Origin: Levilactobacillus zymae DSM 19395
Lineage (GTDB): Bacteria > Bacillota > Bacilli > Lactobacillales > Lactobacillaceae
Direction of reading: 5' to 3'
NCBI RefSeq assembly: GCF_001434115.1
Contig: NZ_AZDW01000022.1
Span: 1-64,000, forward strand
DNA: 64,000 nucleotides
Part shown: positions 9,769 through 40,723 of the stretch, in pieces
How positions within the stretch are numbered: position 1 is the first letter of the stretch
Layout: every line of letters starts with the position of its first letter
Position numbers and translations under genes: made by a program
Notes under the pieces: model-generated
Database searches by the model: none
What the model saw: the letters and a program-made list of their open reading frames with translations, nothing else
Told to the model about the DNA's origin: nothing

Positions 9769-9774
9769 ATTTCT

Positions 9775-10896: not shown

Positions 10897-10900
10897 ATAA

Positions 10901-11797: not shown

Positions 11798-12008
11798 AAG
11801 GATTCTCCTAACCAAATATTTTTAAAAAGCGGATGTGTACGAATGCGTTTGCCCCGTATTTAAAATCACTATACTTACAAATCAATACGCGGTAAAAATA
11901 GAGACTATTAAACCCGATAGTAAAATTCGCACATGGAGTATTTTACTGGGATTACGAGCCAACTTTGATATTAATAGATATACTACAAATACAAAACTAT
12001 ATAATTCA

Positions 12009-12394
12009 ATTGACGAACTGTTAAATCAAGTTCAACTTTCGTTCTTTAATGGTGCCTTTGACCTTTCGGCTTTTACCACGGTGACGTAGCTTACAGGCTA
12101 AACAATCTGAAACCTAAAAAGTCGTTTGTTTAGCTGACGTCCCTGATAGTTTAGGCCCTGACAGTAAGCTTTACGACCGCCATTGTGCTTAATTTCGCAC
12201 GATATGATGGCTTTAAGTTCGTTTAAAGCGACGCCTAACAGCAGACATTCTCGGTCTTTTAAGATAGATGGTTGTACGGACTCATAACCTAAAATCTCCT
12301 TTAGATGTTTATTGTGGTGACTTTATTCTACCGGACTCAGGCTATGGGTCATTTTTTATTTTCTTCTCACTTGTTGAACTTCAATTGTAAATTC
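12009..12394 (-). mobile_element. IS30-family deletion derivative (MITE-like)
   Basis: Read on the minus strand, this 386-bp piece starts with TTTACAATTGAAGTTCAACA, carries the same leader and N-terminal transposase stretch as the copy at 5772, then jumps to the element's right end (GTTGAACTTGATTTAACAG). Both ends share an imperfect inverted repeat around AAGTTCAAC. No functional open frame remains; open frames at 11835 and 12305 are chance. Confidence 0.7.
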
Positions 12395-12460
12395 TTCGCA
12401 CAAAAAACAAGGTATGGTACTAACGCGTATATAAAAATCATTAAATATAGTTCATATGAA

Positions 12461-13558: not shown

Positions 13559-13576
13559 AAGCATCTCCTATAAAAT

Positions 13577-14647
13577 TCAGATATTACTTAAATACACTTT
13601 CTGAATACCATTTATCATTTTTTCAATTGAATACTCTGAACTATATAGTTCGAGACTTGCTGCAGAATACGATTCTTCATTTTCTAAAATATCAGCTGCT
13701 CTTTTTTTAATCTGATAAGGTTTATCAGAATCACTCAGTAAATATCCGTTATTTTTAACTAAGGATTTATGTCCAATAATATCCGTTAATAATAGCGGAA
13801 GCCCATACGATAATGCCTCTAAAACAGAGAACGGAAGTCCTTCATACCGTGACGTGGACAGATATACATCCGCCTTTTTCAAATAACTAGCTACGTTATT
13901 TGAATATCCAACAAATTTTATTTTACTATCCAAATCTAATTTCTTTACCTTTGCCCTACATGATTCAAGTAATGGTCCATCCCCAACCCATACAAATTTA
14001 CAATCTAATTCATTCAATATGATTTGAGCCAAATCGATGAACTTAGAGGGGTTTTTCTGATCAGCACATCGAGCAACATTTATAAAGGTTGTCTCTTTAT
14101 GACTTTGATTCACCAATTCTTGTTTCGGAACGCCATTGTTTACAACCACACTTTTTTTTCCTGCAACTAAGTTACTTCTTAGTGCATACCCTTCTTCTTC
14201 CTTTGATACGTGAATAACGCAAGAAAAAAAGTGGTTCATGAACCTTTCTATAAGCCTCAAAATTCCATTTTTCAAAACTCCTCGGTCCATTTCAGAGTAA
14301 TAAGCATGTGGAGTAAATATAACCGGAATCTTGCTAAAAAAAATCATTTTATAAAGTACCATTGCAATACCTGCAATGGTACTATGAGCGTGAACAATCT
14401 GTACTTGATTTTTCTTAACAACCTTATTAATGCTCATTAAGGACTCTAAAAATTTTATTGGATTTTTTATTTCAGACAACTTGTCTTCAATTATATAATC
14501 TGATGGGATTCCATTTTCCCTTTTAGAGCTTACCATTACAACAAAGTCGAACTTTTTCTTATCTAAATAAGTATTTAAAAAATCTAATTGCGTTTTTACT
14601 CCTCCGCCATAAGATTCACAAAGTTCTAGCACACGTATCTTAGACAA
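13577..14647 (-). CDS. GT4 family glycosyltransferase
   Basis: A 356-residue GT-B enzyme. The start MSKIRVLELCESYGGGVKTQL holds the N-terminal glycine loop, and VHAHSTIAGIAM, ARCADQKNPSKF, WVGDGPLLE and EGLPFSVLEALSYGLPLLLTD mark the donor domain with its two glutamates. It resembles transferases that act second in EPS repeat-unit assembly, but the sugar cannot be named. The start is a TTG at 14647, seven bases after AGGAGG. The large gap upstream (14648-14902) separates it from the priming transferase. Confidence 0.9.
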   Translation of the reverse strand: MSKIRVLELCESYGGGVKTQLDFLNTYLDKKKFDFVVMVSSKRENGIPSDYIIEDKLSEIKNPIKFLESLMSINKVVKKNQVQIVHAHSTIAGIAMVLYKMIFFSKIPVIFTPHAYYSEMDRGVLKNGILRLIERFMNHFFSCVIHVSKEEEGYALRSNLVAGKKSVVVNNGVPKQELVNQSHKETTFINVARCADQKNPSKFIDLAQIILNELDCKFVWVGDGPLLESCRAKVKKLDLDSKIKFVGYSNNVASYLKKADVYLSTSRYEGLPFSVLEALSYGLPLLLTDIIGHKSLVKNNGYLLSDSDKPYQIKKRAADILENEESYSAASLELYSSEYSIEKMINGIQKVYLSNI

Positions 14648-14902
14648 AATATCCTCCTAACAATGCTTTTAAATATGTACTCTCCTATCAAAAAGTTTAG
14701 AATTCGTTATTAGGTAAAATTAATTAGACCCATCTTCACAAAAAATCGTACTCAAAAATAACTTGTTTCAAGTTTCCTTTCCCATGCAAATACATAAAGT
14801 AACGCCGATATTGAACCACTCCACTGAAAATTAGAAAATATATTGCATTATCTACTGACATTGAAAACCCATTATAAGCTACCGCTCAAACTTTTATGCT
14901 AA
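14648..14902. other. Intergenic gap in the EPS operon
   Basis: About 255 very AT-rich bases between the priming transferase and the next GT4 gene. No promoter, terminator or gene fragment was recognised. Such a gap in an otherwise compact operon may mark the junction between the conserved cps front end and the variable transferase block. Confidence 0.35.
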
Positions 14903-15571
14903 TTAATAAGCACCTTTTCCATTAAATATTTTTACAATATTCATCCACATAATCTTTAAATCTACACTTAAGCTCGCTTCGTCTATATAATGCATCTCAA
15001 TATTTGCTCTCTCCGGGTACCCAACATTACTTCTACCACTTGCTTGCCAAAGTCCCATTGCTCCCGGCTTAACTGATAATAACTTTTCAACATTATATTC
15101 GGTAAGTTCTTCCTCGACTACCGGTCTAGGACCTATTAGTGCCATATCTCCTTTAAGGATATTAAGGAATTGAGGAATTTCATCTATTGAAGTTTTCCGT
15201 AAAAAAGACCCTAATTTAGTGATTCGAGGATCATCTTCTGGCTTTAACTTAAAATTATTTTCTACATATTTACGATATAAAACTGGGTTATTATGCAACT
15301 TTTCATCTGCATTCACCACCATGGATCTAAACTTAAACATTTTAAAACGCTGTCCATTTAGTCCCATTCTAACTTGTCGATAAAATAACGGCCCACGATT
15401 ACTAAGACTAAATATGTCTAATAACCAGACGACCAAAAAAATAGGAGACAGCATTACCAATGCCAGCAAAGAAATTGTAATATCAATCAGTCTCTTAGTA
15501 AAAAGGTATCCTTTAGAATAACTCTTTACATGTACTTTATATTTACTTGATACTTTTGAATCTACTTCCAT
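14903..15571 (-). CDS. Priming undecaprenyl-phosphate sugar-1-phosphate transferase
   Basis: A short-form polyisoprenyl-phosphate hexose-1-phosphate transferase of 222 residues: one reentrant or membrane helix (LIDITISLLALVMLSPIFLV), then the catalytic domain with PLFYRQVRMG, FKFRSM, the DE pair in TSIDEIPQFLN, IGPRPVVEEE and PGAMGLWQASGRSN. It loads galactose- or glucose-1-phosphate onto undecaprenyl phosphate and so starts each repeat unit. The ATG at 15571 is eight bases after GGGAG; the upstream GTG at 15580 is too close to that site. It follows cpsB by about 18 bases. Confidence 0.93.
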   Translation of the reverse strand: MEVDSKVSSKYKVHVKSYSKGYLFTKRLIDITISLLALVMLSPIFLVVWLLDIFSLSNRGPLFYRQVRMGLNGQRFKMFKFRSMVVNADEKLHNNPVLYRKYVENNFKLKPEDDPRITKLGSFLRKTSIDEIPQFLNILKGDMALIGPRPVVEEELTEYNVEKLLSVKPGAMGLWQASGRSNVGYPERANIEMHYIDEASLSVDLKIMWMNIVKIFNGKGAY

Positions 15572-15589
15572 ATATGACACACTCCCAGC

Positions 15590-16369
15590 TTAAAATAGCC
15601 AGAATCTTTTTTTCTTTAACGATGAGATTCTTGTCACCGTTCCCCGAACCACTTCATCCCCATTAATAATTGCTTTAGCATTCGCATTGAATTGAATAGC
15701 TAACTCTTTTCCTTTTTTTCTTTCTAGTTTTTCAAACGCTTCATGCATTACGAAACGTCGTCCTTTAAAATTATGCGCATCAGACGAAAACGCGAACCCC
15801 AAATTTGCATCAATGATCTGTGATGTCAATTTCTCAACATCTTTATCGAAAATTCCCAAATAGCTACTACTAGTGAGCTGTGTGAGACACCCCATCTCGA
15901 CAAAGTCATATAACTTATCAGGATGCTTCTGAAAACCATGATTTCTTTCTGGATGGGCAATTACTGGCGTAATACCTCTCGCCAGTAGTTCAAACACCAT
16001 ATCCTTGGTATACTCGGGAATACCACTATGCGGTAGTTCCAATAATAGATAATGGCCGCCCTCATCCATATATAAAATATCGTCATTGTCAATGGCTTCA
16101 AGTAACTCCCCAGTTAAATGAACCTCTTGACCCGGAAACACAGTTAACGGAATTTCGGCATCATCAATGGCCTGTTGGAATTTCTCCACACGAACTAAAA
16201 CATCCTGCTTATGATTGGTGTAATCCCCATCCATATGGTGCGGCGTTAATAAAATATGACTAATTCCTTGACCAACTGCTGCCCGAGCCATATCCAGAGC
16301 CATCGGCAAATCCTTAGCTCCATCATCCACTCCAGGCAACATATGACAGTGTAAGTCAATTAAATTCAT
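15590..16369 (-). CDS. cpsB: PHP-type tyrosine-protein phosphatase CpsB/Wzb
   Basis: A 259-residue metal-dependent phosphatase of the PHP fold. Metal ligands are visible in IDLHCHMLPGVDDG, LTPHHMDG, PVIAHPERN and FSSDAHNFKGRR. It removes phosphate from the tyrosine cluster of the neighbouring BY-kinase CpsD and so controls EPS chain length and output. The ATG overlaps the cpsD stop by four bases (ATGA), a sign of translational coupling. The order cpsC-cpsD-cpsB differs from the pneumococcal B-C-D order but is common in lactobacilli. Confidence 0.94.
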   Translation of the reverse strand: MNLIDLHCHMLPGVDDGAKDLPMALDMARAAVGQGISHILLTPHHMDGDYTNHKQDVLVRVEKFQQAIDDAEIPLTVFPGQEVHLTGELLEAIDNDDILYMDEGGHYLLLELPHSGIPEYTKDMVFELLARGITPVIAHPERNHGFQKHPDKLYDFVEMGCLTQLTSSSYLGIFDKDVEKLTSQIIDANLGFAFSSDAHNFKGRRFVMHEAFEKLERKKGKELAIQFNANAKAIINGDEVVRGTVTRISSLKKKRFWLF

Positions 16370-17121
16370 TTCTTATCATCCGTTCCATAATAACCACCAT
16401 AATTACCGCCATAGTAACCACCGTAATAACCACCGGATTTTTCAGCAGTTACACGATTCATCACAGCACCTAAAATATTGGCATGTACCGTTTCAAGAGC
16501 CTGCTTAGCGTGTCGTACACCAACCTTTTCAGCAATACCTTGTGGAACCACCAAAATTGTTCCGTCTACACGAGCCCCTAATAACTGCGCATCAGTAACA
16601 GTGTTAACTGGTGGCGCGTCTAAAATAAGTAAATCCGATTGATTAACCAACTCTTTCAGTAGTACTGCAGTCCGAGAGCTATTTAATAGTTCTGAGGGAT
16701 TAGGTGGAATAGGACCACTTGTAATCACAGACAAGTTAGCAATCATCGTCGGCTGAATAACTTCTGCTAACTCTGCGTTCCCAGATAAATAATTAGATAA
16801 GCCTACTCGATTACTAACATTAAACGTACGATGTATAGTTGGACGACGTAAATCAGCATCCACAAGTATAACTTGAGATCCTTGATCGGCCCAGGTTACA
16901 GCAACATTATTGCTAACAGTAGACTTCCCTTCTGAAGGAGCAGATGAGGTAAACATAATCGAATGTAATTTATTATTCACTGAAGAAAATTGAATATTTG
17001 TACGCAGTGTCTTAAACTGCTCAGAAATCATCCCAGTAGGATCAGAATAAGTAACTAAACCAACTCCATACTTCAAACTGCTATCGTCTAACTTCTTTTG
17101 TTTTCGTTTAAATAATGCCAT
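16366..17121 (-). CDS. cpsD: Bacterial tyrosine kinase (BY-kinase) CpsD/Wzd
   Basis: A 251-residue cytoplasmic P-loop kinase. Walker A is SSAPSEGKSTVSNN, Walker A' is VILVDADLRRP and Walker B is LLILDAPPV. The C-terminus is a glycine-tyrosine cluster (GGYYGGYYGGNYGGYYG), the autophosphorylation tail. It needs the membrane adaptor CpsC encoded just upstream for activation; CpsB dephosphorylates it. The ribosome site is GGTGATGAATA before ATG. The gene follows cpsC by 10 bases. Confidence 0.96.
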   Translation of the reverse strand: MALFKRKQKKLDDSSLKYGVGLVTYSDPTGMISEQFKTLRTNIQFSSVNNKLHSIMFTSSAPSEGKSTVSNNVAVTWADQGSQVILVDADLRRPTIHRTFNVSNRVGLSNYLSGNAELAEVIQPTMIANLSVITSGPIPPNPSELLNSSRTAVLLKELVNQSDLLILDAPPVNTVTDAQLLGARVDGTILVVPQGIAEKVGVRHAKQALETVHANILGAVMNRVTAEKSGGYYGGYYGGNYGGYYGTDDKK

Positions 17122-17131
17122 TATTCATCAC

Positions 17132-17938
17132 CTAAATTCTTTTGTGTCGACGTGGTTCAACATCACCAATGCCATCTGTAATTAAAACATCACCATTATT
17201 TGTGTTTGGACGTATAACATGTCGACTCATACGTTTCTTAATTTCACTCTCGTCAATTTCATTAATTACGCCTAAACTGGTTAAGCCTAAATCTTCAGTT
17301 AAAAAGCTTTCAGTAGTTACTGTCTTATCACTTAATTCACGAACAAAAGCAAAACTAATACCTAAAACCACTCCCAAAAGTAGACCTAGCACCATGTTCA
17401 GAGCTTTTCGTGGACTAACTGCATTGTAATTAGGCATTGCTTTTGAGACAATGGATACATTATGGACGCTCATCATCTTTACAACCTGTTTTTTAAAAAC
17501 CTTTGCCGTAGTATTAGCAATTACCGCAGATGTTCGTGCATTACTCGTCTTTACCGTAACTGAGAAAACCTGTGAATTTTGTTGGCTACTAATAGAAATA
17601 TTATTTTTCAATCCATTAATTGAACCAGGATACCCTGGATAGATATTCACAGTCTTACTAACTTTCTGAAGCACCGTTGGACTAGTAATGATATCCTTGT
17701 ATGTACTAATCATTTGGACATCAGCCTGAGTTTGTTGCAAGGCAGCCCCTTGCATATCTGCAGATAACTTTCTATTTACCAACAGTTCTGTAGTAGCTGT
17801 ATACTTCGGCGTCATCACAAAAAAAGTCACAAATGCTGCAGCCAGAGTGACCAACAAAGTCGTTATAACAATAGTGCGCATGCGCTTACGCAAGATTCCA
17901 AAGATCTGCGTGATGCTAATGGTTTGTTCTGAATCCAT
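17132..17938 (-). CDS. cpsC: Chain-length determinant / BY-kinase activator CpsC (Wzz)
   Basis: A 268-residue Wzz-domain protein, first of the EPS operon. There are two transmembrane helices, about residues 27-49 (VITTLLVTLAAAFVTFFVM) and 180-200 (NMVLGLLLGVVLGISFAFV), with an extracytoplasmic loop between. The proline-rich entry to helix 2 is SPRKALN. The C-terminal cytoplasmic tail is expected to bind CpsD. I chose the ATG at 17938, which follows GGAGG by five bases; the open frame extends to 17956 but that start overlaps the leader. The polar basic tail ends RRHKRI. Confidence 0.93.
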   Translation of the reverse strand: MDSEQTISITQIFGILRKRMRTIVITTLLVTLAAAFVTFFVMTPKYTATTELLVNRKLSADMQGAALQQTQADVQMISTYKDIITSPTVLQKVSKTVNIYPGYPGSINGLKNNISISSQQNSQVFSVTVKTSNARTSAVIANTTAKVFKKQVVKMMSVHNVSIVSKAMPNYNAVSPRKALNMVLGLLLGVVLGISFAFVRELSDKTVTTESFLTEDLGLTSLGVINEIDESEIKKRMSRHVIRPNTNNGDVLITDGIGDVEPRRHKRI

Positions 17939-18035
17939 TGTTTCCTCCACATCCAACGATTATTCTTTACAATTCATCATCAAAATCGTTAAATTTTTCT
18001 AATGACACTTTAGGTAAGCATAGCACTATTAATCG

Positions 18036-27589: not shown

Positions 27590-30500
27590 TTAGTGATGGC
27601 GGCGTAAGAATCCCATGGCGCCTAAACAGCTAGTTAACAGCGCTAGTCCCAACCATTGAAAGAAGTTGGTAGACCGTTCGGCCGTCTGGGGAAGCTGAGC
27701 TTGAAATTGAACCTGCTGGCGTTGATGAGGCGTTATGGTCGTTAGGTTACGACGGCTCGGCTTCGATTGCGGTTTAGTACCGGTGGCCGTCGGTGGCGTT
27801 GGCACGATGTTGCTGTTCTGGTGGCCGCCCACTATTAGTGGTGTTGGCTTGGGCGCAGCAGTGGACGCCGTTGGTTGGTTGGCAGTCGCCTGGGGGTGCG
27901 GTGCTGGCGTCGTTGTGGTGAGGTCCGACTGGGATTGCGTGATGGGCCCCTGTGGCTGGACCGGCTGCGGTTGCGGCGCTGGCTGGGGATCTGGAACCGT
28001 GGTTGGCTGTGGTATGGGTTGAGGTGTCGGCTTAGGCGTTGGAACTGGCTGTGGCGTTGGTTTGGGGGTCGGCTTGGGCGTCGGAACTGGTTGTGGCATT
28101 GGTTTGGGGGTCGGCTTAGGCGTCGGAATTGGTTGTGGCGTTGGCTTGGGGGTCGGCTTGGGGGTCGGTTTGGGCGTTGGAACCGGTTGTGGTGTTGGCC
28201 TGGGTGTCGGCTTAGGCATCGGAACTGGCTGCGGCGTTGGTGTTGGTTTGGGTTTCGGCTTGGGCGCCGGAACTGGCTGCGGCGTTGGTTGAGGAATTGG
28301 GGCGTAACTGACCCGAACCAGAACATCGTTACTATCTTGAGCCATCCCCACAGCCGGCACCCGGGTTAAGTCCCCAGTAGCTATCGTCATCGCCACCACC
28401 CGTTGCCCCACTACCTGTGGATTCTGGACCGCCGGGAACTGAAATTTCTGATCAGGGGCGACCAAATACCATCCCAGTATCGTTGGTTGATCCGCTGCCG
28501 TGAGCGGTGGCAACGATGCCGTATCGGCGTGTTGATAATGGCTTACTTCTTGCGTAACTTGATTGGTCACGGTCAGGAAAGTCATGGTCTGGGTGCTTGG
28601 CGCAACTACGGGAAGTCCCTGAGCATCGACGTAGAAAATATCTTCGTGTTTGACCTCGCGTTGCGCCGTGATGTTCGGCGCCACCAGAATCTCATAATTT
28701 TTCACTGGCGCTTGACTGGACGCAAACACGATTTGCTGGGTTGGGTCCTGGACAACGTGATAGTGCTGTTGTTGGAGCGGCTCTAGATACGGCTTACTGG
28801 AGAATTGACTGGTAGTTCCCCATTTCCCCCGTAGACTTGGATCCTGGGTGTAATCTAACGACTTTAAAATCTTTCCCGTGGCGACGTCCTTGATGGTCAC
28901 TGTGGCACGATTCGCGGGATTGTAAATCATAATAATTCCTTGGTTGAATCCTTGGAAGGGCACTTGGTGCAAATCCGCAACTTGTTGCCATAAGTCACCA
29001 TTTCTATCAGGACTAGTAACCGCCATTTGGTAGAGATAATCTGGTAAATCCTTAACATAAGTTATCAAGGATTGCGTTGGCGACGCTAGCTGTTGAAACC
29101 GAGCGCTGATGGGCTGGTTTTGAGCGTCCCGAATGACCGTCTGTTGGTTCTGGGGGTCAACGCTAAGATAACGGATGTCCACGTTCCAGGGGGCCACATC
29201 CCGGTAGAACAAGATTGTTACTTGTTGCGACCGGGGGCCAAATACCAGGTTCGAGTTCGTGAGTTGCTGTGCTTTTCCATTTCCCGCTAAAAAGTCTTGA
29301 TATTGACCGGTTCCCGTCAAGGTTAGCGACGCTAGATGTAACCCCTTATTCAGTTGTGTTTGGATCAACGTCTGAACCGCTGGGGCCGTTTTCAAATCGG
29401 TCGTTGCCCCCAATGTTCCCGAAATGACTGCCGCGGGCCCCACCGTTAGTTGTTTACCATCTGCTTGTAAGAGCTGGGCTTGCACGGTCACGATGCCCTC
29501 TTTTGCCGCTAACCTATACGGTTGAATGATGATACCGTCGAATTTATCTTGCGCATCCGACCAAGCAGCCGTTAAGCTACCATCGGCAACAGATGAATCC
29601 GCTTGTAGCTGATACCACGTCAGTGTATTGGCGTTAACGTTTCCCACATTGGCGGTCGACGGAAAACTATTTTGGTAAAGATCGTGTTGAGCTGGGTCTA
29701 ATCCCGTAATCGGTAAGTTCTGATTACGTTGGTCCTTAATGATAAATGACGGTGTCGTGTACCCCAATTGCGTCGTCGCTAATTCCTGCGGTAACACGAT
29801 TGGGGTGAGTAAAATATGTTGGTCACCCATACTAATGGTCTTAAGGTGTTGGTCTGAAGCCAGCGGCGAAATATCCGCAATTTGATTGTGGTCTAACTCA
29901 ACCTCCGTCAGCTGCTTTTTATCGGCTAAGGCGGAAATATCATTGATGGCAAAGCTACTAATATTGACACTGGTTAGCTCTTGAAGGGACTTAAGCGCCC
30001 GAATGTCCCACAAATTTCCGGCCTGAAGTCCCCCTTTCCGCGCGTAAAAGCCAACTAGGGGGTCGGGGGACAGATAAATTGTTTTGAGATGGGTGGCGTT
30101 TTGTAAGCCTTCTAACGAATACATCCCCGTTAACGCCCAATAATACTGCGTGGGCGTTTTACCATCGTTGTTGACGGATTGTAACGACTGCTGAGAAAAC
30201 AGGTCCGTCAGGTCTGTGGCCATCTGAGCCTTCGTAAACTGTTGACGAAATTCATTGAAGGTTTTGTATTGACGGCTAAAATTATTTTCCCAGATAAAGT
30301 CTTGCAGGGCGCCATCCGGTAGCCACTCGTCGATGTATAGTGGATGGTGCCCATCCGCATAAACCAGTGACGACCCCTTGTCTTCCCCCTTAGCGTCTAT
30401 CGCAATATGATTGGCGTACGATTCTCCTTGCCAATTGAAAGCCCCCGGAACCTGATAATTCGGGCTATAGTGATCTACCCGGCGTAAATCCGTATCTTGC

Positions 30501-31006
30501 CCCGCTCCATCTTGATGAACATAGGTTGATTGGGGCCGGATTTGCTTAGGAATCGTCAACCCTTGGTGTGGTTGCGCCGGCACGATGTTCACGAGTTGCT
30601 GCGTGTCGACCGGTGCGATTCCCGCTTGAATCGCTGTGGAATCCGGCTGCGTTACCGGGGTCGCAGAAGCCGCGGGAGTTCCTGACGCCGAGGTCTTCTG
30701 TCGTACTGGCGCTGTTGGTTCATTAGAACCCGCGTGTTGGCCGGAAACCATTGCTTGGGTGCTTGACGATTGGGTTGAATTATCATTCGCTGATTGTACG
30801 TTGGCCTTCAGTCCGACTTGCTTTTGAGTTGCAACGTTCTGCCCATTTTTCTGAATACCGGATGCTAACGCCGGTTGCTGGTCTGCATGTGCCTGGGTTA
30901 AATTGGCATTGAGTAATAACAAGGCTGTTCCGGCCACCGTCCCGGCCGCAACCCATTGCCGCTGTCGTTTTTTCCCCACTTCTAATTTTCGTTTCACGAT
31001 TGCCAC
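27590..31006 (-). CDS. LPQTA-anchored surface protein with leucine-rich and proline-rich regions
   Basis: A protein of about 1138 residues. An atypical basic signal peptide ([14 protein letters not shown] then [14 protein letters not shown]) precedes a Ser/Thr/Gln-rich stretch. Leucine-rich-repeat-like segments lie near residues 300-400 ([45 protein letters not shown]), followed by beta-rich domains and one MucBP-like unit. Then comes a wall-spanning Pro-Lys-Thr repeat ([15 protein letters not shown]), encoded at about 28010-28290. The end is LPQTAERS, a hydrophobic helix and RRHH, the sortase signal. It likely mediates adhesion. The GTG at 31006 follows GGAG; the longer frame to 31069 lacks a ribosome site. 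Confidence 0.85.
28010..28300 (-). repeat. Tandem proline-rich coding repeat
   Basis: Short imperfect repeats encode alternating PTPKP, PKPTPQP and PVPTPKP units in the cell-wall spacer of the surface protein. The near-identical units make this a likely site of length variation. Confidence 0.75.
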
Positions 31007-31158
31007 CCCTACTCCTTTTGAGATTAATCGTTCCGCGACAACTATAGGTCGGAAATGTTGGGTTTTCAATACCTACAATCATTTTTAGTATAAAGCACAT
31101 AATAAAACGTGCATTTCTTATTATAGTTGTAATATTGCGACAAATTGCTCGCTAAACG

Positions 31159-31318: not shown

Positions 31319-34300
31319 TTATTTAACTAAATTATGGTTCGCCGTAACGTAACCACCAGCTACGCGGTAACGTAACGTACCGTGTGCTGAGTAGTCCCAA
31401 CCCTGAACCTTCAGCTGTTTGTTAGCCGCGATTCCGCGTAATCGGTGCTTTAATTCAGCCTCTTTGTAGAGCGTGACGCGGTGCTTAGTCCTAATCGTCC
31501 GAGGCATCTTCAGCTTCCCAGCTTGGACCTGTTGCTTGTTGGCCGTGATATACGCCCCATTCGTCAACTGGAAGACCAGTGACTGACCACGATGGATCAA
31601 ACGCTTGGTTCGTAAGACTTGACCTTGACGGTAATGATGCTTCACCTTCCCAGTCAATTTGGCCGACTTGTACCCCGAAAGGCCCTTCGCATTAATGACC
31701 GTTACCCGTTTAACCAGCTTCGTGTAGTCCGCATTTTGGACGTAACTCGAACTAGCCGTGATGTACCCGGTTTGCTTGTACGTCTTGGACTTCCGATTGA
31801 CGTCGCGCACGTGGAACCGCAGACGGCCATTCTTCGCCTTGACCGTCCCTAAGACCGCGAACTCTGGTTGGTGCATTTGCGGTTGCTTACTAAACGAGTT
31901 CATCCGGGCACCCTTAGAGAAGTTCGGCTTCCGGTACAGTGCCAAACCGCGAACCCCGATCACCTTAGCAGGTGTCTTTTTAGCCGTTGGTTTCGTTGCA
32001 CTTGGCGTCGTTGGCTGCGACGGTTCCGGCTTGGTCACACTTGGCTTGGAAGTTTCCGGCTTGCTTACGCCAGGCGTTGCACTTCCTGAAGTTGAGCCTC
32101 CCGGCGTCGAAGTCCCTGGTGCTGTTGAACCCGGATGCGTTGCTCCTGGTGTCGTTGAACCTGGGTGCGTCGTTGCCGTATGGTCCATTGCCGTTAATTC
32201 AGCTGCATCAACTTGGTTCCCCTGAGCATCGACCGTTAATAAGGACAGCTTGTTGCCATCAATTTTAACCGTCAAGAAAGTCTTTTGTTTCTTGTTCGCT
32301 TCGGTTTGAATCATGTCCCAAACTTCAGGTTGGTTCGGCCGAATGTCGTACGTCTTTTCGCCGGTATGTCCCGCCGCGATATAGGTCGTCCCATGCGCGG
32401 CCTTTTTACCTCCGACCAGTGGGAACGTCCGCCCGTATGAGTGGTCATGGCCACTAAAGACCACATCGATACCCAATTCATCACATACTGGTGGTAACAT
32501 CTTGTTAAACATCGTTGAACGCGAATCGGCCGGGTTTTTGTTGTAGGCTGGTTGGTGGGTCGTCACCACCCGCCAAGTCTTCTTAGACGCCTGCATATCT
32601 TGCTTCAACCAGTCCAATTCCCGCTGCATTTCTTTAGGATCATCCGTCCAACCAATTGATGCGATGTGCATGTTGCCGTAGTCGACTGAATACGTCCCCT
32701 TGCGGACCGTCTTCGGCCCATTGCCGTTAGGAACCCCCAGCATCTCGATGGACTTAGACCCATCGTCCCCCATGTACTCATGGTTCCCCATCACGTGGAG
32801 CATATCCATCGAATCGTAATACGGGTGTTCATCAAAGATTCGGGCCGTGGCTTCGGCTTCCGTATAGAGGGTTTGGTCATCGTTAAAGTCCCCGACGTGA
32901 ATACCAAAGGCTGGTTTATCCTGAGACTTTTCTACGCCGTTCAGGAAATTATCGAAATCGTTCAATTGACCATAGTTACCAACCTGGGTATCCCCAAAGA
33001 CGTTAAACGAAAACTTATTACTATCCGTAAGCGTCGTAAAATGCCGAACGGCTGACCAATTAGTGCCATCCCCTACGCGGTACGCGTAGGACGTTCCCGG
33101 CTTAAGTCCCTTAGCATCAACTCGGTTAACCGTCACGGCACTGGTATCACTGTCGTAAGTAAACAGCGAATTCCGCCCACTCTGGCTCGTCTTAAAGGCC
33201 TTGTCCTTGTTTGCCGCGTAGTCTTTGTCCGTGGCGATTTGCATCAATGACTGAATGGTATGATCAACGGGCTTGGTCATCCAGGTAATCGTCTTCCGCG
33301 TCGTTGGGTCTTGTGATGCCCCCGTCAACAAGTGCGATGGCACTTCACTGGTCTTGTCTCCCGGTGCATAAATGATCGTTGGGGCTAAGAAACTATGCGC
33401 TGCCCCGTTATCCGCACCAATTTTGATTTTTCCTGCCTGCGTCGGCAGCTTATCCGTTGGGACTTCACCTTGAGCATTCGTTTTGCCTAACGTAACGGAC
33501 TGGCCGTTAGCCGTTACCGCAAAGACGTCTACCCCGGTTGCGGGTTTACCTGCAGCGTCTAAAATCGTGACCGTATTCTTCAGTCCCGCCACAAATGGGG
33601 TGTGCTTGACCTGATAATCGGCCTGCGCCTTAACCGTGTGTTCTTCCGATGCCACGGTCAACGCCATATCAGTCGGTGCGGCGTCCTTCAGTTCAACCGC
33701 ACCGCTCAGTAATTGATACGTTAACGGGGCATCGGCCGGCGTATCCCGCGGAACGTTTAAGGTAACGGTCATCAGTGGCTTGGTCTTATCGGTACCTAAA
33801 TTCTTTAGCGTAAAGGTCGTTGTGCCGTCCTTTGACTCGGTCGCATACCCGTTTTGTTTGCTATCCTCAACCGCGTAATCAACGGACTTAATGGTAAAGC
33901 CCGGTGCCAACTTCATCTTAAAGACGGCCGACTTCAACTTCGTTAAATCATCGGCGGTAATGTTAAATTTGGCCGTATCGCCTAATTTTACGGTTTTATC
34001 CAATTGATTCAGGTGAATCCCCGTAGCTTGGTTGGCTTTCACCGTAAAGTACGCTTCTTTTTCGGTCTTGTTCCCGAACTTATCCACCGCCACGACCTTC
34101 ACGTGGTGCGTCCCGTTCATGAACTTGAGACCCTTGAGCGTAATCAAACCATCCTTATCCGGAATAAAGTGGGTCTTATCTGCTGAATAGTCATGGTCAT
34201 CCACGTAAACTTTACTATTGTCCCAGTCAATCCCCGACATATTCGGATCATCCGGATCATCGTGCAACTTAGTGGTAATCGTCACGTTGCTATCCGTAAA

Positions 34301-36361
34301 GGTCTTCCCGGCCACGTCGATACTATCAACGATGGGATTCTTCAGGTCATCCTTGTTCACACCGTAGACCGCCCGAATGTTATCCACGAAGATATGGCCT
34401 TTAGCGGCTTTACCACCACCTGGCATCCCCGTCTTAACGGACATTACCCGAATTGCCAGTTTTGAATCGATGCGAATGGGATAAGCCACGCCATCCGGAA
34501 GTGGGGCTTCCACGTACTTCCAGCCCGTCCAATCAATCCCAGTTGACGTATCCACGAAGTCCAACGGCATCGCGGCGTTCGCCCCGTCATGGATGGCCAT
34601 CCGTAGCCAATCGCCCTGGGCTTCTGGCGTAGCGTAGACCCACATTCCGATACTCTTAGGCGCACTCGGAACATTAATAGACTGGTCTTTAGGCCCAGCG
34701 TAGGAACCGGCCGTTTTGTTGTTCAACGATGAGTCCGTGTAGTCAAAGTCCACCCGGAGGGCCTTTTTCCCAAAACGAACCTCGCCGTCGTCTGCGGTCA
34801 CCGTTGAGATGCCACCCTTCACGGCCGGAACTGAAGTACTTGAAGTCCAATCCGGCACACCATCTTCAAAGTCAACGATGGTTTTAGGCAATTGGCCGAC
34901 TTGAACGTTCACTTGCGCTTCTAAGCCACTGACGCTGGGGAGTGTGGCCTTAATGGTACCACCAGCACTACCTTTGACCCCTTGGAACTCGTCATAACCC
35001 GACATGACTCCTAGATTAGCAGGGCAGTCCCACTTAACTTCATCATCTTTTAAGTGAACTTCCCGTTGTCCCGCGTAAGCCGTTAAATTTAGCGACCGCT
35101 TTTCTCCCGGTGCCAAACTAAGTTCCTTGTTTAAGAAGCTCAAACGGTCTGGCTTAGCCAGGGTAACGGTACTCTTCCCTAAGACCTTATTACCTTGCTT
35201 TAATTCGACCGTCACATTTCCAGTCTTACCGTTAGACGTAAAGACGCCTTGGTTATCAATCGAGCCCAAAGACTTGTCATCGATCGTCCAAGTCAGCCCA
35301 GACGTAGGAAGTTTCGCGTCATAGCCAGCTGCATCGACCCCACTCGCCTTAAAATCAACCTTAGTGCCGGCTAAGTAGGCTTGATCTTTTGGGGACACTT
35401 CGGCACGGTCCAATTGATGGTCGGACTTGGCGTTCGTCACAATCAGCCAACTCGTGCTGACCTTCCGTTCCGAACGGTCGGATGGGCGATTTTTTAAGGA
35501 CAGGTCCTTTTCGCCGGGTGTCCGGGAGAGGTAAGTCGTCGAGCCCCCGCCATCAAAATTAATCGCGTCCACGGCTCCCTTATCTTTCATCAGTTTAGCC
35601 AACTCGGATAAACTCATCCCGTCGGAATATGGAGGTTGTTGCCCATCAACGGAGACAAAGAAGACCGTGCCATCCGCCTTGATACCAACCGCCGTATGTG
35701 CCGAATGCGGCGTGCCCGGTACGCCCTTTAAACTATCGGCGGACTGAACCTGTCCGTCTTTGACCAGTCGGCCTAAACCGCCCAGTGCTTGTTCTAGGTT
35801 GCCCTTTTCCTTGTCGTAATCGGCTTGATCCCCAATTACCGGTTTACCCGCTCTAGTCAATCCAAAGAAACTTTCACCGCTATTGGGTTTAGACGCGTGA
35901 ATCTCTTTTCCGTCCTTGATAATGGTCCCCGAGGGTTCCCCGGAACTCATGTTAAAGAAATCGGCGTTGACGGCCGCTACCACTTGGTGTCCCTTCTTAA
36001 TTGCCGCGTTCGCTTGGTCCCGCACGGTCTGCAAACCATACTTCTCTCCGTCATCGGGCAGCCCCGGACGCAAAGTAGCATTCTTACTAAAATCAACGGA
36101 GACCGTGTGCACGACGTCTTGGCTGTTTTTATCCCCAATAAAAGCTGACCGATTATCCGTCACTCCGGGAGCCAATTCGTTTGATGAGCTTTCAATCGGG
36201 TGATCGTACCCCTTAGCGTCATCGGCTTTAGGTTGGACGACCGGCCCCGCAGTTGTTGCTTGGCGTTGCATGGTATTCGCCTGGGCAACCGGTGTCATCA
36301 ATGGTGTTAAAACTAGGGCAATCGCCAAGGTAGCGCCTAATTGCCGTCTTTTCTTCATCAT
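31319..36361 (-). CDS. Giant secreted phosphodiester glycosidase / metallophosphoesterase fusion
   Basis: About 1680 residues. A signal peptide (MMKKRRQLGATLAIALVLTPLMTPVAQA) precedes a NAGPA-type phosphodiester glycosidase domain (HTAVGIKADGTVFFVSVDGQ, AINFDGGGSTTYL). Then come a BIG2-like Ig domain, a galactose-binding-like beta-sandwich (VDFEDGVPDW to IFVDNIRAVYG), an Ig-like and a cohesin-like domain. A purple-acid-phosphatase-like unit follows with its metal motifs GDTQVGNYGQ, GDFND, GNHEYM and SGHDHSYGR. After a Pro/Thr/Gly linker there are three Lys/Tyr-rich cell-surface repeats. It may break down glycosyl-phosphate polymers such as teichoic acid. The ATG at 36361 follows AGAGAGGG. Confidence 0.85.
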   Translation of the reverse strand: MMKKRRQLGATLAIALVLTPLMTPVAQANTMQRQATTAGPVVQPKADDAKGYDHPIESSSNELAPGVTDNRSAFIGDKNSQDVVHTVSVDFSKNATLRPGLPDDGEKYGLQTVRDQANAAIKKGHQVVAAVNADFFNMSSGEPSGTIIKDGKEIHASKPNSGESFFGLTRAGKPVIGDQADYDKEKGNLEQALGGLGRLVKDGQVQSADSLKGVPGTPHSAHTAVGIKADGTVFFVSVDGQQPPYSDGMSLSELAKLMKDKGAVDAINFDGGGSTTYLSRTPGEKDLSLKNRPSDRSERKVSTSWLIVTNAKSDHQLDRAEVSPKDQAYLAGTKVDFKASGVDAAGYDAKLPTSGLTWTIDDKSLGSIDNQGVFTSNGKTGNVTVELKQGNKVLGKSTVTLAKPDRLSFLNKELSLAPGEKRSLNLTAYAGQREVHLKDDEVKWDCPANLGVMSGYDEFQGVKGSAGGTIKATLPSVSGLEAQVNVQVGQLPKTIVDFEDGVPDWTSSTSVPAVKGGISTVTADDGEVRFGKKALRVDFDYTDSSLNNKTAGSYAGPKDQSINVPSAPKSIGMWVYATPEAQGDWLRMAIHDGANAAMPLDFVDTSTGIDWTGWKYVEAPLPDGVAYPIRIDSKLAIRVMSVKTGMPGGGKAAKGHIFVDNIRAVYGVNKDDLKNPIVDSIDVAGKTFTDSNVTITTKLHDDPDDPNMSGIDWDNSKVYVDDHDYSADKTHFIPDKDGLITLKGLKFMNGTHHVKVVAVDKFGNKTEKEAYFTVKANQATGIHLNQLDKTVKLGDTAKFNITADDLTKLKSAVFKMKLAPGFTIKSVDYAVEDSKQNGYATESKDGTTTFTLKNLGTDKTKPLMTVTLNVPRDTPADAPLTYQLLSGAVELKDAAPTDMALTVASEEHTVKAQADYQVKHTPFVAGLKNTVTILDAAGKPATGVDVFAVTANGQSVTLGKTNAQGEVPTDKLPTQAGKIKIGADNGAAHSFLAPTIIYAPGDKTSEVPSHLLTGASQDPTTRKTITWMTKPVDHTIQSLMQIATDKDYAANKDKAFKTSQSGRNSLFTYDSDTSAVTVNRVDAKGLKPGTSYAYRVGDGTNWSAVRHFTTLTDSNKFSFNVFGDTQVGNYGQLNDFDNFLNGVEKSQDKPAFGIHVGDFNDDQTLYTEAEATARIFDEHPYYDSMDMLHVMGNHEYMGDDGSKSIEMLGVPNGNGPKTVRKGTYSVDYGNMHIASIGWTDDPKEMQRELDWLKQDMQASKKTWRVVTTHQPAYNKNPADSRSTMFNKMLPPVCDELGIDVVFSGHDHSYGRTFPLVGGKKAAHGTTYIAAGHTGEKTYDIRPNQPEVWDMIQTEANKKQKTFLTVKIDGNKLSLLTVDAQGNQVDAAELTAMDHTATTHPGSTTPGATHPGSTAPGTSTPGGSTSGSATPGVSKPETSKPSVTKPEPSQPTTPSATKPTAKKTPAKVIGVRGLALYRKPNFSKGARMNSFSKQPQMHQPEFAVLGTVKAKNGRLRFHVRDVNRKSKTYKQTGYITASSSYVQNADYTKLVKRVTVINAKGLSGYKSAKLTGKVKHHYRQGQVLRTKRLIHRGQSLVFQLTNGAYITANKQQVQAGKLKMPRTIRTKHRVTLYKEAELKHRLRGIAANKQLKVQGWDYSAHGTLRYRVAGGYVTANHNLVK

Positions 36362-36589
36362 AAATTCAAATCCCTCTCTGTCTGTAAACCTAAAGTATCT
36401 AAGCAACCAGCTTAACGTCACCACCACATCAAGACGATTGTTGTTTTTTCGCATTGAAGTCGTCGTAACTTGAGTATCAGTTTACGGGATTCCAACTTAG
36501 TTTTGGGTAAGTTTACAAAGTCTGTACAGAGATAGCGGAACCTTTACACGTTTATAAAACCTATGATAATGATTAGCTAATTCTAAAAC

Positions 36590-36632: not shown

Positions 36633-36638
36633 ACCTTA

Positions 36639-36710
36639 TTGGGTATACTGGGATCGAACCAGTAAATTACGGATTCAGAGTCCGGTGCCTTACCATTTGG
36701 CGAATACCCA
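36639..36710 (-). tRNA. tRNA-Gln (anticodon CUG)
   Basis: A 72-nt cloverleaf on the minus strand: acceptor TGGGTAT/ATACCCA with discriminator A and the U1-A72 pair typical of Gln tRNAs. The anticodon stem CGGA/TCCG carries loop CTCTGAA, giving CUG. The T arm is CTGGTTCGATCCCAG. CCA is not encoded. Confidence 0.9.
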
Positions 36711-36880
36711 ATGAGCTATGGTGTTGTGCGAAACAACTATTTAATAGTACCTTGTTTCCGAATTAGTGTCAACCGATTTTAACGAAAAATGCATAACTCC
36801 TCAGACCAAGAATTTTTATGCACAAGCCGTTGACAATTTTTCTAAAGAAGCGTAAATTAGATGTTGCTAGTCAATGACAT

Positions 36881-37120: not shown

Positions 37121-40100
37121 TTAATTTCTCTTCCGCCGAAAACCAAACCAACCTAACAGGCTCAAGCCCAACGCTCCCAACCAAGCCCACGGCGTTGTCT
37201 GCTCGTTGGTTTGAGGTAGCGTCGTCGTCGCCGTCGTCTCATCGGCTTGCGTCAAATCGGTCGTGGCCGTCGCGTCCGCGGTCCCCGTGGCGTTCACGTT
37301 TGCCGCAGCGCCACCCGGACGACTGGCCTGAGCTGGTGCCTTAGCGGCCGGTAATTTCTGTCCTGGCTTGACGGCGTTCGCCGCGTTACCGCCCGTTGAT
37401 GGGTCCGGCAAGGCGAGGTCCGGCTGGCTTCCCACGTCAATGTCCGGGACGTCTGGTAACCCTGGTTGGCCCGGGTCGACCGGTGGTAGGACCGTCCCCT
37501 TCTTCGCGTAGGTCACCGTGGTGGTCAGATCCGCGCTGGTAGCCGTCACGCCGTTCACCGCCGCCACGGTCGCCAGGTTCGGCGTGTAGCCGGTGACGGT
37601 TGGCGACTTGATCGCCGCAAAACTACCATTGCCGTCAATATTTTGCCATTCACCCCAGGTCGCCACGCCCGTCACCAAGTCACGCGTTCCGGTCCGCGTA
37701 AACGTCAACCAGGCCGTGTAGTCCGGTGCCGCCGTGGTCCCGTCCGCGTAGACGTAGTGGATGGTTTGGGTGACGCGTTTACTGTTATTGACCGTTGCTA
37801 AGCCGTGTTTCAAATGCACGGTAAACGTCTGCACGTCCGTGGTAAATTCGGCACCCGTGGCCGGGTAATCGTCGCTGACCAGTTCGTAGCCCTGCTGCAG
37901 GTAAGCCTGAATGGCCGCCGCGGTCCGGTAATCACTGATGGTGCCCGCATCGCCCTTCAAGGCCTCCGTGTGCAAGACCTTCCCCGTGGTGTCGTCCACG
38001 TAGGTGATCAGGATGTTCTGCGCATCCCTAGCGGTATAGGTCACCGTGGTCGTAAAGTCGTCACTGGTGGCCGTCACATCGGTAATGGCCGCCACTTCCG
38101 GCTGGTTGGCGATGTAGCCGGCCAGCACCGGTGAGGTCTTCGCCGCAAAACCGGTTTGACCGTCGATATTTTGCCACTCGCCCCAGGTTTCTGCCCCGGT
38201 CACCTGGTCGCGGGTCCCCTCGCGCGTAAACGTCAACCAAGCCGTGTAGTCCGGTGCCGCCGTAGTTCCATCCGCGTAAACGTAGTGGATGGTCTGGGTG
38301 ACGCGTTTGCTGTTATTCAGGGTCGTAACGCCGTGTTTGAGGCGCACGGTAAAGGCCTGGGCCTGATCCGTAAACGCCACCCCGTCAACCGGGTAATCGT
38401 CGGTGACCAGTTCGTACCCCTGTTGGAGGTAGGCCTGAATCGCGGCCGCCGTCCGGTAATCGCTGGTGGTGCCGTAGATTCCCGTTAAGGTGTCGGTCTT
38501 GAGCGTGGCCCCCGTGGTCTCGTCCACGTAGGTCACCGTCACGTTTTGGACTTCCTGGGCCGTATACGTTACGGTGGCGGTCACGTCGGCGCTATCCACG
38601 GTGATCCCGTCCACGGCCGGAATTTCCAATTGGTCCGCCAGGTAGCCGGCCAGCACCGGTGAGGTCTTGGCCGCAAAACCGGTTTGACCATCGATATTTT
38701 GCCACTCGCCCCAGGTCTCCGCCCCGGTCACCTGGTCGCGGGTCCCTTCGCGCGTAAACGTCAACCAGGCCGTATAGTCCGGTGCCGCCGTGGTCCCATC
38801 CGCGTAGACGTAGTGAATGGTCTGGGTGACGCGTTTACTATTACTGAGCGTCGTTAGACCGTGTTTCAGGTGAATGGTAAAGGCCTGCGCCGCGCTGGTG
38901 AACGTCACCCCGTCGGCCGGGTAATCGTCCGTGACCAGCTCGTAGCCCGCATCCGTGTACCCCTGAATCGTGGTGTCCGTGCGGTAATCGCTGGTCGTGC
39001 CCACGTCGCCCGTCAGGTTCTCGGTGGCCAGGGTTTCCCCGGTGGTGTCGTCCACGTAGGTCACCGTGGCGGTAGCGGTGGCTTCACCGATGGGCTGGTA
39101 CACGATAGCCCCCGCCATCAGATCAAAGTCCTTCATGGGTTGACCTAAACTATTTTCGGGATACGTTGTATACGTCGCATCATCATAGTAAAACTGGCCA
39201 TAAACCAGTTGCCCGTTATGTAACATCGGGTTAACCAGCGTGTACTTCCAGACCTTCTTTTCTTGACCATTCTCAATGATCGTTGCTTCGTGGGGTTCCG
39301 CAATCACCAGGTCCCCACTACCATCGTTCTGATAATAACGTACTTGATACTTGACTGATTCGCCTAGAATACCTTTCATGGGTGACGTCACTTCGACCGT
39401 ATCCCCCGGCTGATAAGCAATTTTATCCGTTGCTTGGTAATACTGGTTTCTCCCTACCACTCGCGATGCCGTATTGGGTGACAGGGTGTTCAGGGCACTG
39501 AAATCCATGATGCTGTTCCCGGAAAATGCGACTGTTTGCGACGATGTCGTTGGATTTTCTAAGATTTTTTGAACAAAGGGTGCCAAGATTTCAAATTGGT
39601 GGGTCGTCATCCCGGTAAAATGTATTTTATTAATATTGGTGGCCGTGAATTCCAGATTTTGAATGGTATCCGATTCATACTGCGTTATCGTCTCTAACTG
39701 CTCATCGCTCGCGCTTCCCCAAAAATCAGAGGTCCAATCCAACCAGCTAATCTTCACCCCTAATAAAGGTGAAAAATCAATATTTTGGACTTCCTCACCC
39801 GAGGACCCCAGTTGAGCATATATCGTTATCCCTTTGCGATTTTCTGGCAGATACCTAAAAATTTCTAATCCCTTAAAACTCAAAATCGGTTGAAAAACAT
39901 TGTTACCATTCGCGTCTTTTCCAGTCGTATCAATTCTCAGTGACGCGGACGGACTAGCGTTTCTAATCGTATCTAAATAGATGGCATCCCCATCTTTCAG
40001 GCCCAGCGCCTTCCGCACGGCCGCCAGTAAAACCGGGTCGTCAAACCGGGCACTCAAATCCTCATCGTCGCTAATCTCATCGGGGTCGGGCGTCGGCGTG

Positions 40101-40723
40101 GTTGCCAACGCTGCTGGCGCGGCCATGGCTTTGGCCGGCGCCTGTTGCGCATGATCAGCGTCCGACGCCTCTCCTGCCACGGAATCCGAATCCGCCGGCT
40201 GTTCAGTGGCTGGTGGTGTCGTTGAATCCCGCTGTTCATCTGGCGTTGTGGTTACCGTCGGATTGGCCGGGTTCTCAGTCTGCGGCGCCGTTGAATCCGG
40301 TTGATCAGAAGTATCTGCTTCCGGGGTATCTGCTTCCGGGGCATCCACTTCCGGAACCGTCGTGGCATCTGCGTCCGACGTCTGCGCCGGTTCAGTGGGT
40401 TCCTGTTCCGGTTGGTCGGTCGCTGACTGCGCCGAATTCTTCGGGGTTTGTTCGTCCGGTTCGGACGTCTCGGTCACCGGTGCCGGGTCCTGGGCGGCCG
40501 CATCCGTCTGGGCCTGTTCCGTCGCGGTAACGGTTGTGATCGTTGCCTGCGTATTTTCTGGCGTCGTTTGCGCCGCTTGGCTAGTGGTCTCAACTGGTGA
40601 AGTGGTCGTGTCCGCATGTGCCGTAGTTCCCGCCAAAACCATCCCGGTCAAGACGGCCGTCGCTAGGCTAGACGTAATCCACCATTTCTTACTATTGTTA
40701 GCGGTTACATGTTCTCGTGTCAT
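37121..40723 (-). CDS. LPQTN-anchored mucin-binding-like adhesin with three long repeats
   Basis: A 1200-residue surface protein. The signal peptide ends TAHAD; residues about 40-215 are Thr/Glu/Pro-rich low complexity; residues 220-460 hold an LRR-like N-terminal domain (DDPVLLAAVRKALGL, NIDFSPLLGVKISWLDW). Three tandem units of about 175 residues follow. Each combines a MucBP domain (TVTYVDDTTGETL) and a Mub-type domain (VTQTIHYVYADGTTAAPDYTAWLTF). The end is LPQTNEQT, a hydrophobic helix and RRKRN for sortase anchoring. It likely binds mucus glycans. GAGGAGGG precedes the ATG, with a perfect palindrome just upstream. Confidence 0.9.
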   Translation of the reverse strand: MTREHVTANNSKKWWITSSLATAVLTGMVLAGTTAHADTTTSPVETTSQAAQTTPENTQATITTVTATEQAQTDAAAQDPAPVTETSEPDEQTPKNSAQSATDQPEQEPTEPAQTSDADATTVPEVDAPEADTPEADTSDQPDSTAPQTENPANPTVTTTPDEQRDSTTPPATEQPADSDSVAGEASDADHAQQAPAKAMAAPAALATTPTPDPDEISDDEDLSARFDDPVLLAAVRKALGLKDGDAIYLDTIRNASPSASLRIDTTGKDANGNNVFQPILSFKGLEIFRYLPENRKGITIYAQLGSSGEEVQNIDFSPLLGVKISWLDWTSDFWGSASDEQLETITQYESDTIQNLEFTATNINKIHFTGMTTHQFEILAPFVQKILENPTTSSQTVAFSGNSIMDFSALNTLSPNTASRVVGRNQYYQATDKIAYQPGDTVEVTSPMKGILGESVKYQVRYYQNDGSGDLVIAEPHEATIIENGQEKKVWKYTLVNPMLHNGQLVYGQFYYDDATYTTYPENSLGQPMKDFDLMAGAIVYQPIGEATATATVTYVDDTTGETLATENLTGDVGTTSDYRTDTTIQGYTDAGYELVTDDYPADGVTFTSAAQAFTIHLKHGLTTLSNSKRVTQTIHYVYADGTTAAPDYTAWLTFTREGTRDQVTGAETWGEWQNIDGQTGFAAKTSPVLAGYLADQLEIPAVDGITVDSADVTATVTYTAQEVQNVTVTYVDETTGATLKTDTLTGIYGTTSDYRTAAAIQAYLQQGYELVTDDYPVDGVAFTDQAQAFTVRLKHGVTTLNNSKRVTQTIHYVYADGTTAAPDYTAWLTFTREGTRDQVTGAETWGEWQNIDGQTGFAAKTSPVLAGYIANQPEVAAITDVTATSDDFTTTVTYTARDAQNILITYVDDTTGKVLHTEALKGDAGTISDYRTAAAIQAYLQQGYELVSDDYPATGAEFTTDVQTFTVHLKHGLATVNNSKRVTQTIHYVYADGTTAAPDYTAWLTFTRTGTRDLVTGVATWGEWQNIDGNGSFAAIKSPTVTGYTPNLATVAAVNGVTATSADLTTTVTYAKKGTVLPPVDPGQPGLPDVPDIDVGSQPDLALPDPSTGGNAANAVKPGQKLPAAKAPAQASRPGGAAANVNATGTADATATTDLTQADETTATTTLPQTNEQTTPWAWLGALGLSLLGWFGFRRKRN
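37500..39090 (-). repeat. Three near-identical tandem Mub/MucBP coding repeats
   Basis: Units of about 525 bp recur within the adhesin gene. Stretches such as the code for YVYADGTTAAPDYTAWLTF and GEWQNIDGQTGFAAKTSPVLA are almost unchanged between units at DNA level, pointing to recent duplication or gene conversion. Confidence 0.85.

Follow-up and report, generated by a model that had tools for sequence, protein, structure and literature searches.

The window, a 64,000-nucleotide stretch from Levilactobacillus zymae DSM 19395 (contig NZ_AZDW01000022.1), encodes a large protein in which a NAGPA-type phosphodiester glycosidase is fused to a purple-acid-phosphatase-like module. Computation gave its domains, folds and conserved sites, and showed that the architecture is widespread, that PhoP-type sites recur in Bacillaceae and that Levilactobacillus has a pst-like repeat. 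As PhoP-type sites lie upstream of the gene in many relatives, we consider that the fusion is probably, with some reservation, a secreted, wall-associated, phosphate-responsive two-step phosphate scavenger, whose activity, substrate and regulator are predicted. In the presumed order of steps, the NAGPA domain would hydrolyze a sugar-1-phosphate diester (sugar–P–R) to free sugar and a phosphomonoester, and the purple-acid-phosphatase domain would then take the phosphate off the latter. The CBM-like domain and the DUF5776 tail would hold the enzymes on glycan and wall, PstSCAB would import the inorganic phosphate released, and transcription would follow phosphate supply via PhoP acting at the PhoP-type sites. 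The product of interest would be inorganic phosphate taken up via Pst, not glycerol phosphate taken up via Ugp. The candidate substrates are teichoic acid (its linkage units), whether the cell's own or foreign, as well as EPS and yeast phosphomannan.

The ORF (31319-36454, minus strand) gives 1711 aa when counted from its first ATG. By eye, a start at 36361 (MMKKRRQLG...) is better, since it opens a signal peptide and the L. acidifarinae protein, 91% identical, starts likewise. Four Pfam families matched the protein, all above their curated cut-offs: NAGPA (PF09992, E = 1.2e-41, 143.2 bits with a cut-off of 25), Pur_ac_phosph_N (PF16656, E = 4.1e-13), Metallophos (PF00149, E = 6.2e-18) and DUF5776 (PF19087, two stretches, E = 1.9e-24). 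A domain search had been suggested in the initial annotation, which was made from the letters of the window; its 1680-residue polypeptide with NAGPA and metallophosphoesterase parts was confirmed here by Pfam and by folds, and its cell-surface repeats proved to be the two wall-type DUF5776 stretches. These are preceded by a Thr/Ser/Pro/Gly-rich linker. The stretch between the CBM-like sandwich and the phosphatase looked Ig- and cohesin-like by eye. The features are listed in Table 1.

Table 1. Positions of the fusion gene, its parts and its surroundings in the window
Feature	Position	Strand	Basis
Whole CDS, NAGPA–PAP fusion of 1680 aa, predicted to be secreted	31319..36361	(-)	ORF, Pfam
N-terminal signal peptide, about residues 1-29	36275..36361	(-)	Judged by eye from sequence
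NAGPA phosphodiester glycosidase domain, Pfam residues 126-307	35441..35986	(-)	Pfam, PDB sequence match, fold
His222 (CAT) in the [P/A]R[T/S]AVG motif	35696..35698	(-)	51-row alignment
NAGPA signature DGGGS, residues 270-274	35540..35554	(-)	51-row alignment
CBM-like beta-sandwich, residues 488-670	34352..34900	(-)	Structure comparison of AlphaFold model
Purple acid phosphatase N-terminal domain, residues 1016-1110	33032..33316	(-)	Pfam, fold
Calcineurin-like/purple acid phosphatase catalytic domain, residues 1119-1309 (GDTQ, GD..D, GNHE, H1269, GHDH)	32435..33007	(-)	Pfam, alignment, fold
C-terminal part, residues 1441-1680, two DUF5776 stretches	31322..32041	(-)	Pfam
TTTACA-N5-TGTACA repeat, pst-like (candidate PhoP-type) site, near edge 151 bp upstream of the start codon	36512..36528	(+), opposite to gene	
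Surface-protein genes flanking the fusion (LRR; MucBP LPXTG)	27590-31069 and 37121-40723		

Among solved structures, a sequence search matched 3ohg, a DUF2233 protein from a bacterium (E = 3.8e-19), NAGPA of animals (E from 4e-13 to 6e-12) and purple acid phosphatases (E = 1e-7 at best). Residues 50-685 and 690-1400 were modeled using AlphaFold, each from an alignment of 49 sequences (the window protein and 48 relatives; L050 and the second L052 copy were left out of both), and the mean pLDDT values were 90.8 and 90.5, respectively. The models were compared with the chains ranked by Foldseek. The first model aligned with 3ohg at a Z score of 34.9 (rmsd 2.2, 258 aligned) and with animal NAGPA 6pku at 28.5, and the fold match began near residue 50, before the Pfam match. 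The second aligned with kidney-bean purple acid phosphatase 6hwr at 39.5 (rmsd 2.8, 371 aligned) and with the PhoD structure 2yeq at 24.3. Fold and signature motifs are common to the window protein and the DUF2233/NAGPA family (BACOVA_00430, 3ohg; the animal uncovering enzyme, 6pku and 6pki), but the phosphatase module is absent from these solved chains, and the window protein has His where the family usually has Arg in the [PA]R[TS]AVG motif. With plant purple acid phosphatases (6hwr, 1xzw) it has in common the two-domain fold and the metallophosphoesterase motifs, although the identity over the fold match is about 19% and its first motif is GDTQ.

Residue conservation was read from a 51-row alignment of the window protein and 50 fusions. 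The metal-site residues D1124, Q1126, D1158, D1161, N1193, H1194, H1269, H1305 and H1307 were kept in 48-51 of the 51 rows, and N132, D134, D270, G272, G273 and S274 of NAGPA in all 51. The initial annotation had named missing catalytic residues as grounds against it. Both enzyme domains are apparently complete. The window copy keeps the NAGPA N.D, DG and DGGGS motifs and all metal-site motifs of the phosphatase, and the one departure is a NAGPA Arg that is His222 here. Position 222 is Arg in 43 rows, Tyr in three, Lys in two, Val and Ala in one each, and His in the window protein; nine Levilactobacillus copies have Arg, that of L. acidifarinae among them. His222 may weaken the NAGPA of the window copy, and because it replaces the usual Arg, activity is less certain here than in the relatives.

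To see how the architecture is distributed, a sample of 301 Lactobacillaceae genomes, the L. zymae genome included, was searched, and 73 matched the query. The match was full or nearly full in L. zymae itself and in four further genomes, of which three belong to Levilactobacillus and the fourth to a different genus. A fifth other genome matched the NAGPA half, and most of the remaining matches covered the DUF5776 tail region only. A collection of named species yielded 97 relatives, and the best 80 of the 97 were kept; the nearest named relatives among these were Levilactobacillus species. Both halves occurred in 51 ORFs of the kept loci and the Lactobacillaceae loci, or 50 after L006 (the same protein as L035) was dropped. 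These 50 fusions belong mostly to Bacillota (Levilactobacillus, Schleiferilactobacillus, Lacticaseibacillus, many Bacillaceae, Paenibacillus, Lachnospiraceae and other Clostridia), and one is from a Coriobacteriaceae MAG. Within Levilactobacillus, 13 of 35 genomes contained a NAGPA gene, 15 genes in total, with two copies interrupted (G316 and G307 contig 51). A second, nearby fusion copy in genome G305 (L186:2588-7906) is without the DGGGS string and without the exact promoter repeat described below; its NAGPA profile match remains and its Arg motif is present.

The combination of NAGPA with a purple acid phosphatase is already known and widespread, and it is not new here. According to Updegrove et al. 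2024 (PMC11488536), NAGPA can be a fusion partner of proteins from the ShfP radiation. As described there and in PMC11188070, the ShfP (YvnB) radiation comprises secreted cell-surface proteins with Ig/FN3-like domains, including the Pur_ac_phosph_N version, and a calcineurin-like catalytic domain, as in the window protein. Bacillus subtilis ShfP itself differs, being described (PMC11488536, PMC11188070) with a lamin-tail domain and seven Ig domains, a place of action in the forespore and the release of glycerol. The window protein combines NAGPA, calcineurin-like and Ig/FN3-like domains and looks secreted, and by these domains it was likened to the ShfP-type fusions. Among the matches listed from an open-licence literature search, none assigned a physiological role to the NAGPA–phosphatase fusion. 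What the present analysis adds is regulation, namely Pho-type sites upstream of fusion genes.

We take TTHAYA hexamers at an 11-bp period to be the PhoP box consensus of B. subtilis; the review PMC4415409, searched for PhoP motif wording, gave none. The 250 bp upstream of 17 Bacillaceae homologues were scored for four such hexamers (maximum 24) with a scheme devised here, and start codons were chosen with a home-made signal-peptide rule. The 17 promoters include that of L046, whose ORF ends before the phosphatase domain and lies outside the 50 fusions. The score was 23 in one promoter, 22 in seven, 21 in four, 20 in two, 19 in one and 17 in two. A score of at least 21 was reached by 12 of 17 Bacillaceae promoters and by 2 of the 249 regions upstream of other ORFs in these loci that served as controls (Fisher p = 2.7e-15, a value that overstates independence because the sequences are related: for the 16 of 17 compared, the median pairwise identity was 0.73, and six pairs, in two groups of three, exceeded 0.8). 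At least 20 was reached by 14 of 17 promoters and 6 of 249 controls, and no control reached 22. With dinucleotide shuffles, p was below 0.05 in 15 of 17, again for related sequences (exceptions, L039 and L041). The gene strand scored above the other strand in 16 of 17, with one tie, and in 15 a distance of 97-126 bp separated the beginning of the best match, weak in one, from the start codon chosen downstream.

In two loci (L047:14160-16466 and L036:14156-16486 (-)) the fusion adjoins a phosphoesterase of calcineurin type that also has a PQQ beta-propeller. The PhoP-type repeat upstream of the phosphoesterase gene is 60 bp away in L047 and about 436 bp away in L036. The L047 control region that scored 21 and the L036 repeat are both upstream of this phosphatase and may not be true negatives.

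No consistent PhoP-type signal was found in the 26 rows of fusions outside Bacillaceae and Lactobacillaceae; the gene strand gave p ≤ 0.01 in five (both L052 copies, L071, L068 and L088) and weaker signals or none in the others, and some starts in this set were poorly guessed. In Lactobacillaceae of genera other than Levilactobacillus, L. parakribbianus had TTTACG, TTTACG and CTTACA at 11-bp spacing (p = 0.013 and 0.037). The S. perolens promoter showed no TTHAYA signal (p = 0.95 and 0.63).

On its own strand the window gene did not pass the TTHAYA test (p = 0.07 for three hexamers and 0.13 for four). A pst promoter of the same genome (contig C18) reads TTTACA, TTTACA, TCTACA, TTTACA with an 11-bp period, and an opposite-strand TNTACA repeat with this period was common to all seven promoters first compared. 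The pattern TNTACA-N5-TNTACA was chosen after inspecting those seven, and the pattern read backwards served as the control. The window genome had six matches at four places (one pstS promoter, the fusion promoter, the EPS region and one more), and the control had two. The match at 11142 falls within a glycosyltransferase ORF of the EPS cluster. Genomes G159, G182 and G265 had four matches each (controls 0, 3 and 1); in all three, one match was close to a pstS and another was upstream of the fusion. The repeat was present at one pstS promoter and at the fusion promoter in all four genomes in which pstS was located. The second pstS promoter in each of these four, that on contig C40 in the window genome, had no exact site.

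The repeat was upstream of a NAGPA gene in all of nine additional genomes, six of them new and three known before from named loci. For the six genomes whose promoters were unseen when the pattern was chosen, this amounted to 6/6 genomes and 6/8 NAGPA genes. The Levilactobacillus totals were 13/13 NAGPA genomes and 13/15 NAGPA genes, counted over related genomes that are not independent samples; the repeat was lacking at two genes, G305's second copy and G307's interrupted one. The thirteen genomes had 4-14 matches each against 0-5 for the backward control, and since the backward pattern also matches, single matches elsewhere may be chance. In the seven genes measured, 128-151 bp lay between the gene and the near edge of its upstream site. 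Lineages differed in the register of the repeat and also in the upstream neighbour (a MucBP gene, another same-strand gene or a divergent gene), so the site seems tied to the fusion. Its orientation was opposite to that of the gene in 13 of 13 cases, in contrast to the sites at pst and in Bacillaceae. This could mean repression, a different or sister regulator, or a site that tolerates either orientation.

On the strand of the gene, the window site reads TGTACA-N5-TGTAAA and so comes close to what is presumably the WalR consensus, TGTWAH-N5-TGTWAH. The fusion might then remodel the surface of its own cell by trimming sugars bound through phosphodiesters in wall teichoic acid or EPS, with a WalR-type envelope regulator in control. 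Suitable polymers are suggested by an EPS/capsule cluster at 8-18 kb (8347-17956), with UDP-galactopyranose mutase, galactofuranosyltransferase-like and priming glycosylphosphotransferase genes, and by three gene matches of the teichoic-acid-type glycerophosphotransferase family in the host genome. Yet exact WalR-type matches in the genome were about as frequent as those of the reversed control (11 vs 10), none was at the fusion promoter, and one overlapped the pst promoter on the other strand; WalR control was rejected for the lack of enrichment and the absence at this promoter. The fusion repeat is also common to a pstS promoter, and the Bacillaceae homologues carry PhoP-type sites on the gene strand. 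We regard remodelling of this kind as unlikely.

Foreign glycans are another candidate. The initial annotation had described the beta-sandwich as carbohydrate-binding-like, and the fold agreed: the top match of residues 488-670 was the flagellar sheath protein FlaA1 (9cyn, Z 17.9), and CBM-type domains followed (CBM27 1oh4, Z 12.5; CBM11 6r3m, Z 11.8; many at Z of about 10-14). CBM27 is a mannan binder, Levilactobacillus species live in fermented foods, and the nearest named relatives of the fusion belong to this genus. The enzyme could accordingly forage, cutting mannosyl-phosphate from yeast phosphomannan or similar material in fermented food or soil for both sugar and phosphate. The animal NAGPA substrate GlcNAc-P-mannose (PMC12024695) has a bond of similar type. 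However, FlaA1, CBM11, CBM16, CBM22 and others match the sandwich about as well as CBM27 or better, so the fold names no ligand, and no mannanase or mannosidase family was found among the window proteins scanned (about 6.9-57.4 kb; several matched nothing). Foraging for mannosyl-phosphate is in our judgement decidedly unlikely.

Phosphate scavenging, the reading we prefer, has a counterpart in the Pho-regulated teichoic acid hydrolases PhoD and GlpQ of B. subtilis, which resemble the fusion in proposed role and in Pho control (PMC6232261). The teichoic-acid-type glycerophosphotransferase genes of the host speak for this reading too. PhoD and GlpQ cut the phosphodiesters of glycerol- or ribitol-phosphate teichoic acid (PMC6232261), whereas NAGPA would cut a sugar-1-phosphate diester. 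If confirmed, the fusion would add a sugar-phosphodiester route to PhoD/GlpQ mining of phosphate from cell-surface polymers, and it would be a candidate for trimming or detaching glycosyl-phosphate polymers in phosphate-starved Gram-positive bacteria. NAGPA domains are common in bacteria, and the recurrent PhoP-type promoter sites make a phosphate response directly and cheaply testable.

A narrower version concerns the linkage unit. The GlcNAc-alpha-1-phosphate-6-MurNAc bond ties teichoic acid to peptidoglycan and is of the same kind as the animal substrate GlcNAc-1-P-6-mannose. NAGPA might cut this bond and the phosphatase might remove the MurNAc phosphate, making the fusion a wall-teichoic-acid release enzyme under PhoP control. 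Among the matches listed from an open-licence literature search, none proposed teichoic-acid release by such a fusion, and we hold this specific version to be improbable.

On either side of the fusion are surface-protein genes, one for a MucBP LPXTG protein and the other for an LRR protein with an LPXTG-like end, and tRNA-Gln (36638-36711) is just upstream. For large Bacillota proteins with NAGPA and a TelC-like enzyme, a weapon or defence role is proposed in PMC12419801. The window fusion is likewise large, modular and secreted-looking among surface proteins, and it could be an enzyme directed against other bacteria. But the Pfam scan matched no toxin-type domain in it, its promoter sites resemble phosphate control, and clustering of 595 flanking ORFs from 46 named loci found no partner gene common to most of them. 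A weapon is therefore very improbable. The largest flanking clusters were an ABC-type ATPase (10 loci), a 618-aa protein (six clostridial loci) and a sugar permease (five loci: L035, L064 and L068-L070), and the few neighbours that were scanned in L035, L064, L036 and L032 varied locus by locus.

An ABC importer lies at 51.2-55.3 kb, where four proteins matched the UgpC, A, E and B models, all below the curated cut-offs. The initial annotation had held this UgpB-type importer to suit glycerol-phosphate products. Among 35 Levilactobacillus genomes, NAGPA was present in 13 and a UgpB-like gene in 19 (both in 8, NAGPA only in 5, UgpB-like only in 11, neither in 11), with no association between them (Fisher p = 0.73), and a functional tie was rejected as unsupported. 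In 7 of the 8 genomes with both, the two were on one contig, with about 14-27 kb between the nearest copies, and this closeness appears to be plain synteny. The known NAGPA reaction is on glycosyl-1-phosphate diesters, not on the glycerol-phosphate backbone, so glycerol phosphate is not the expected product. The initial proposal was borne out in part: both enzyme domains are apparently complete, the sandwich has a CBM-like fold, the tail repeats are of wall type, and many relatives carry upstream PhoP-type sites in keeping with phosphate scavenging. Stepwise breakdown of a glycosyl phosphate is still a predicted activity, and the UgpB link is not supported.

When 29 window proteins were searched by tblastn against seven relative loci, flanking genes (glucose-6-phosphate isomerase, MucBP and LRR) were refound only in L. 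acidifarinae. The other loci gave only partial matches, to ABC transporter parts, a kinase and a mucin-binding repeat; one of the transporter parts was a UgpE-like permease of S. perolens (36%), encoded at a distance of about 8.5 kb from its fusion. Next after the fusion, L. acidifarinae instead has an AAA-ATPase gene with a small companion ORF (L032:15299-17267). In genome G308 (L190:7366-9241), and likewise in L185, L186 and L188, genes for a 303-aa protein without a Pfam match and a BacA/UppP undecaprenyl-diphosphatase are divergent from the fusion. A TTTACA-N5-TTTACA repeat with the orientation of the BacA/UppP gene lies immediately upstream of that gene, which is possibly phosphate-controlled too.
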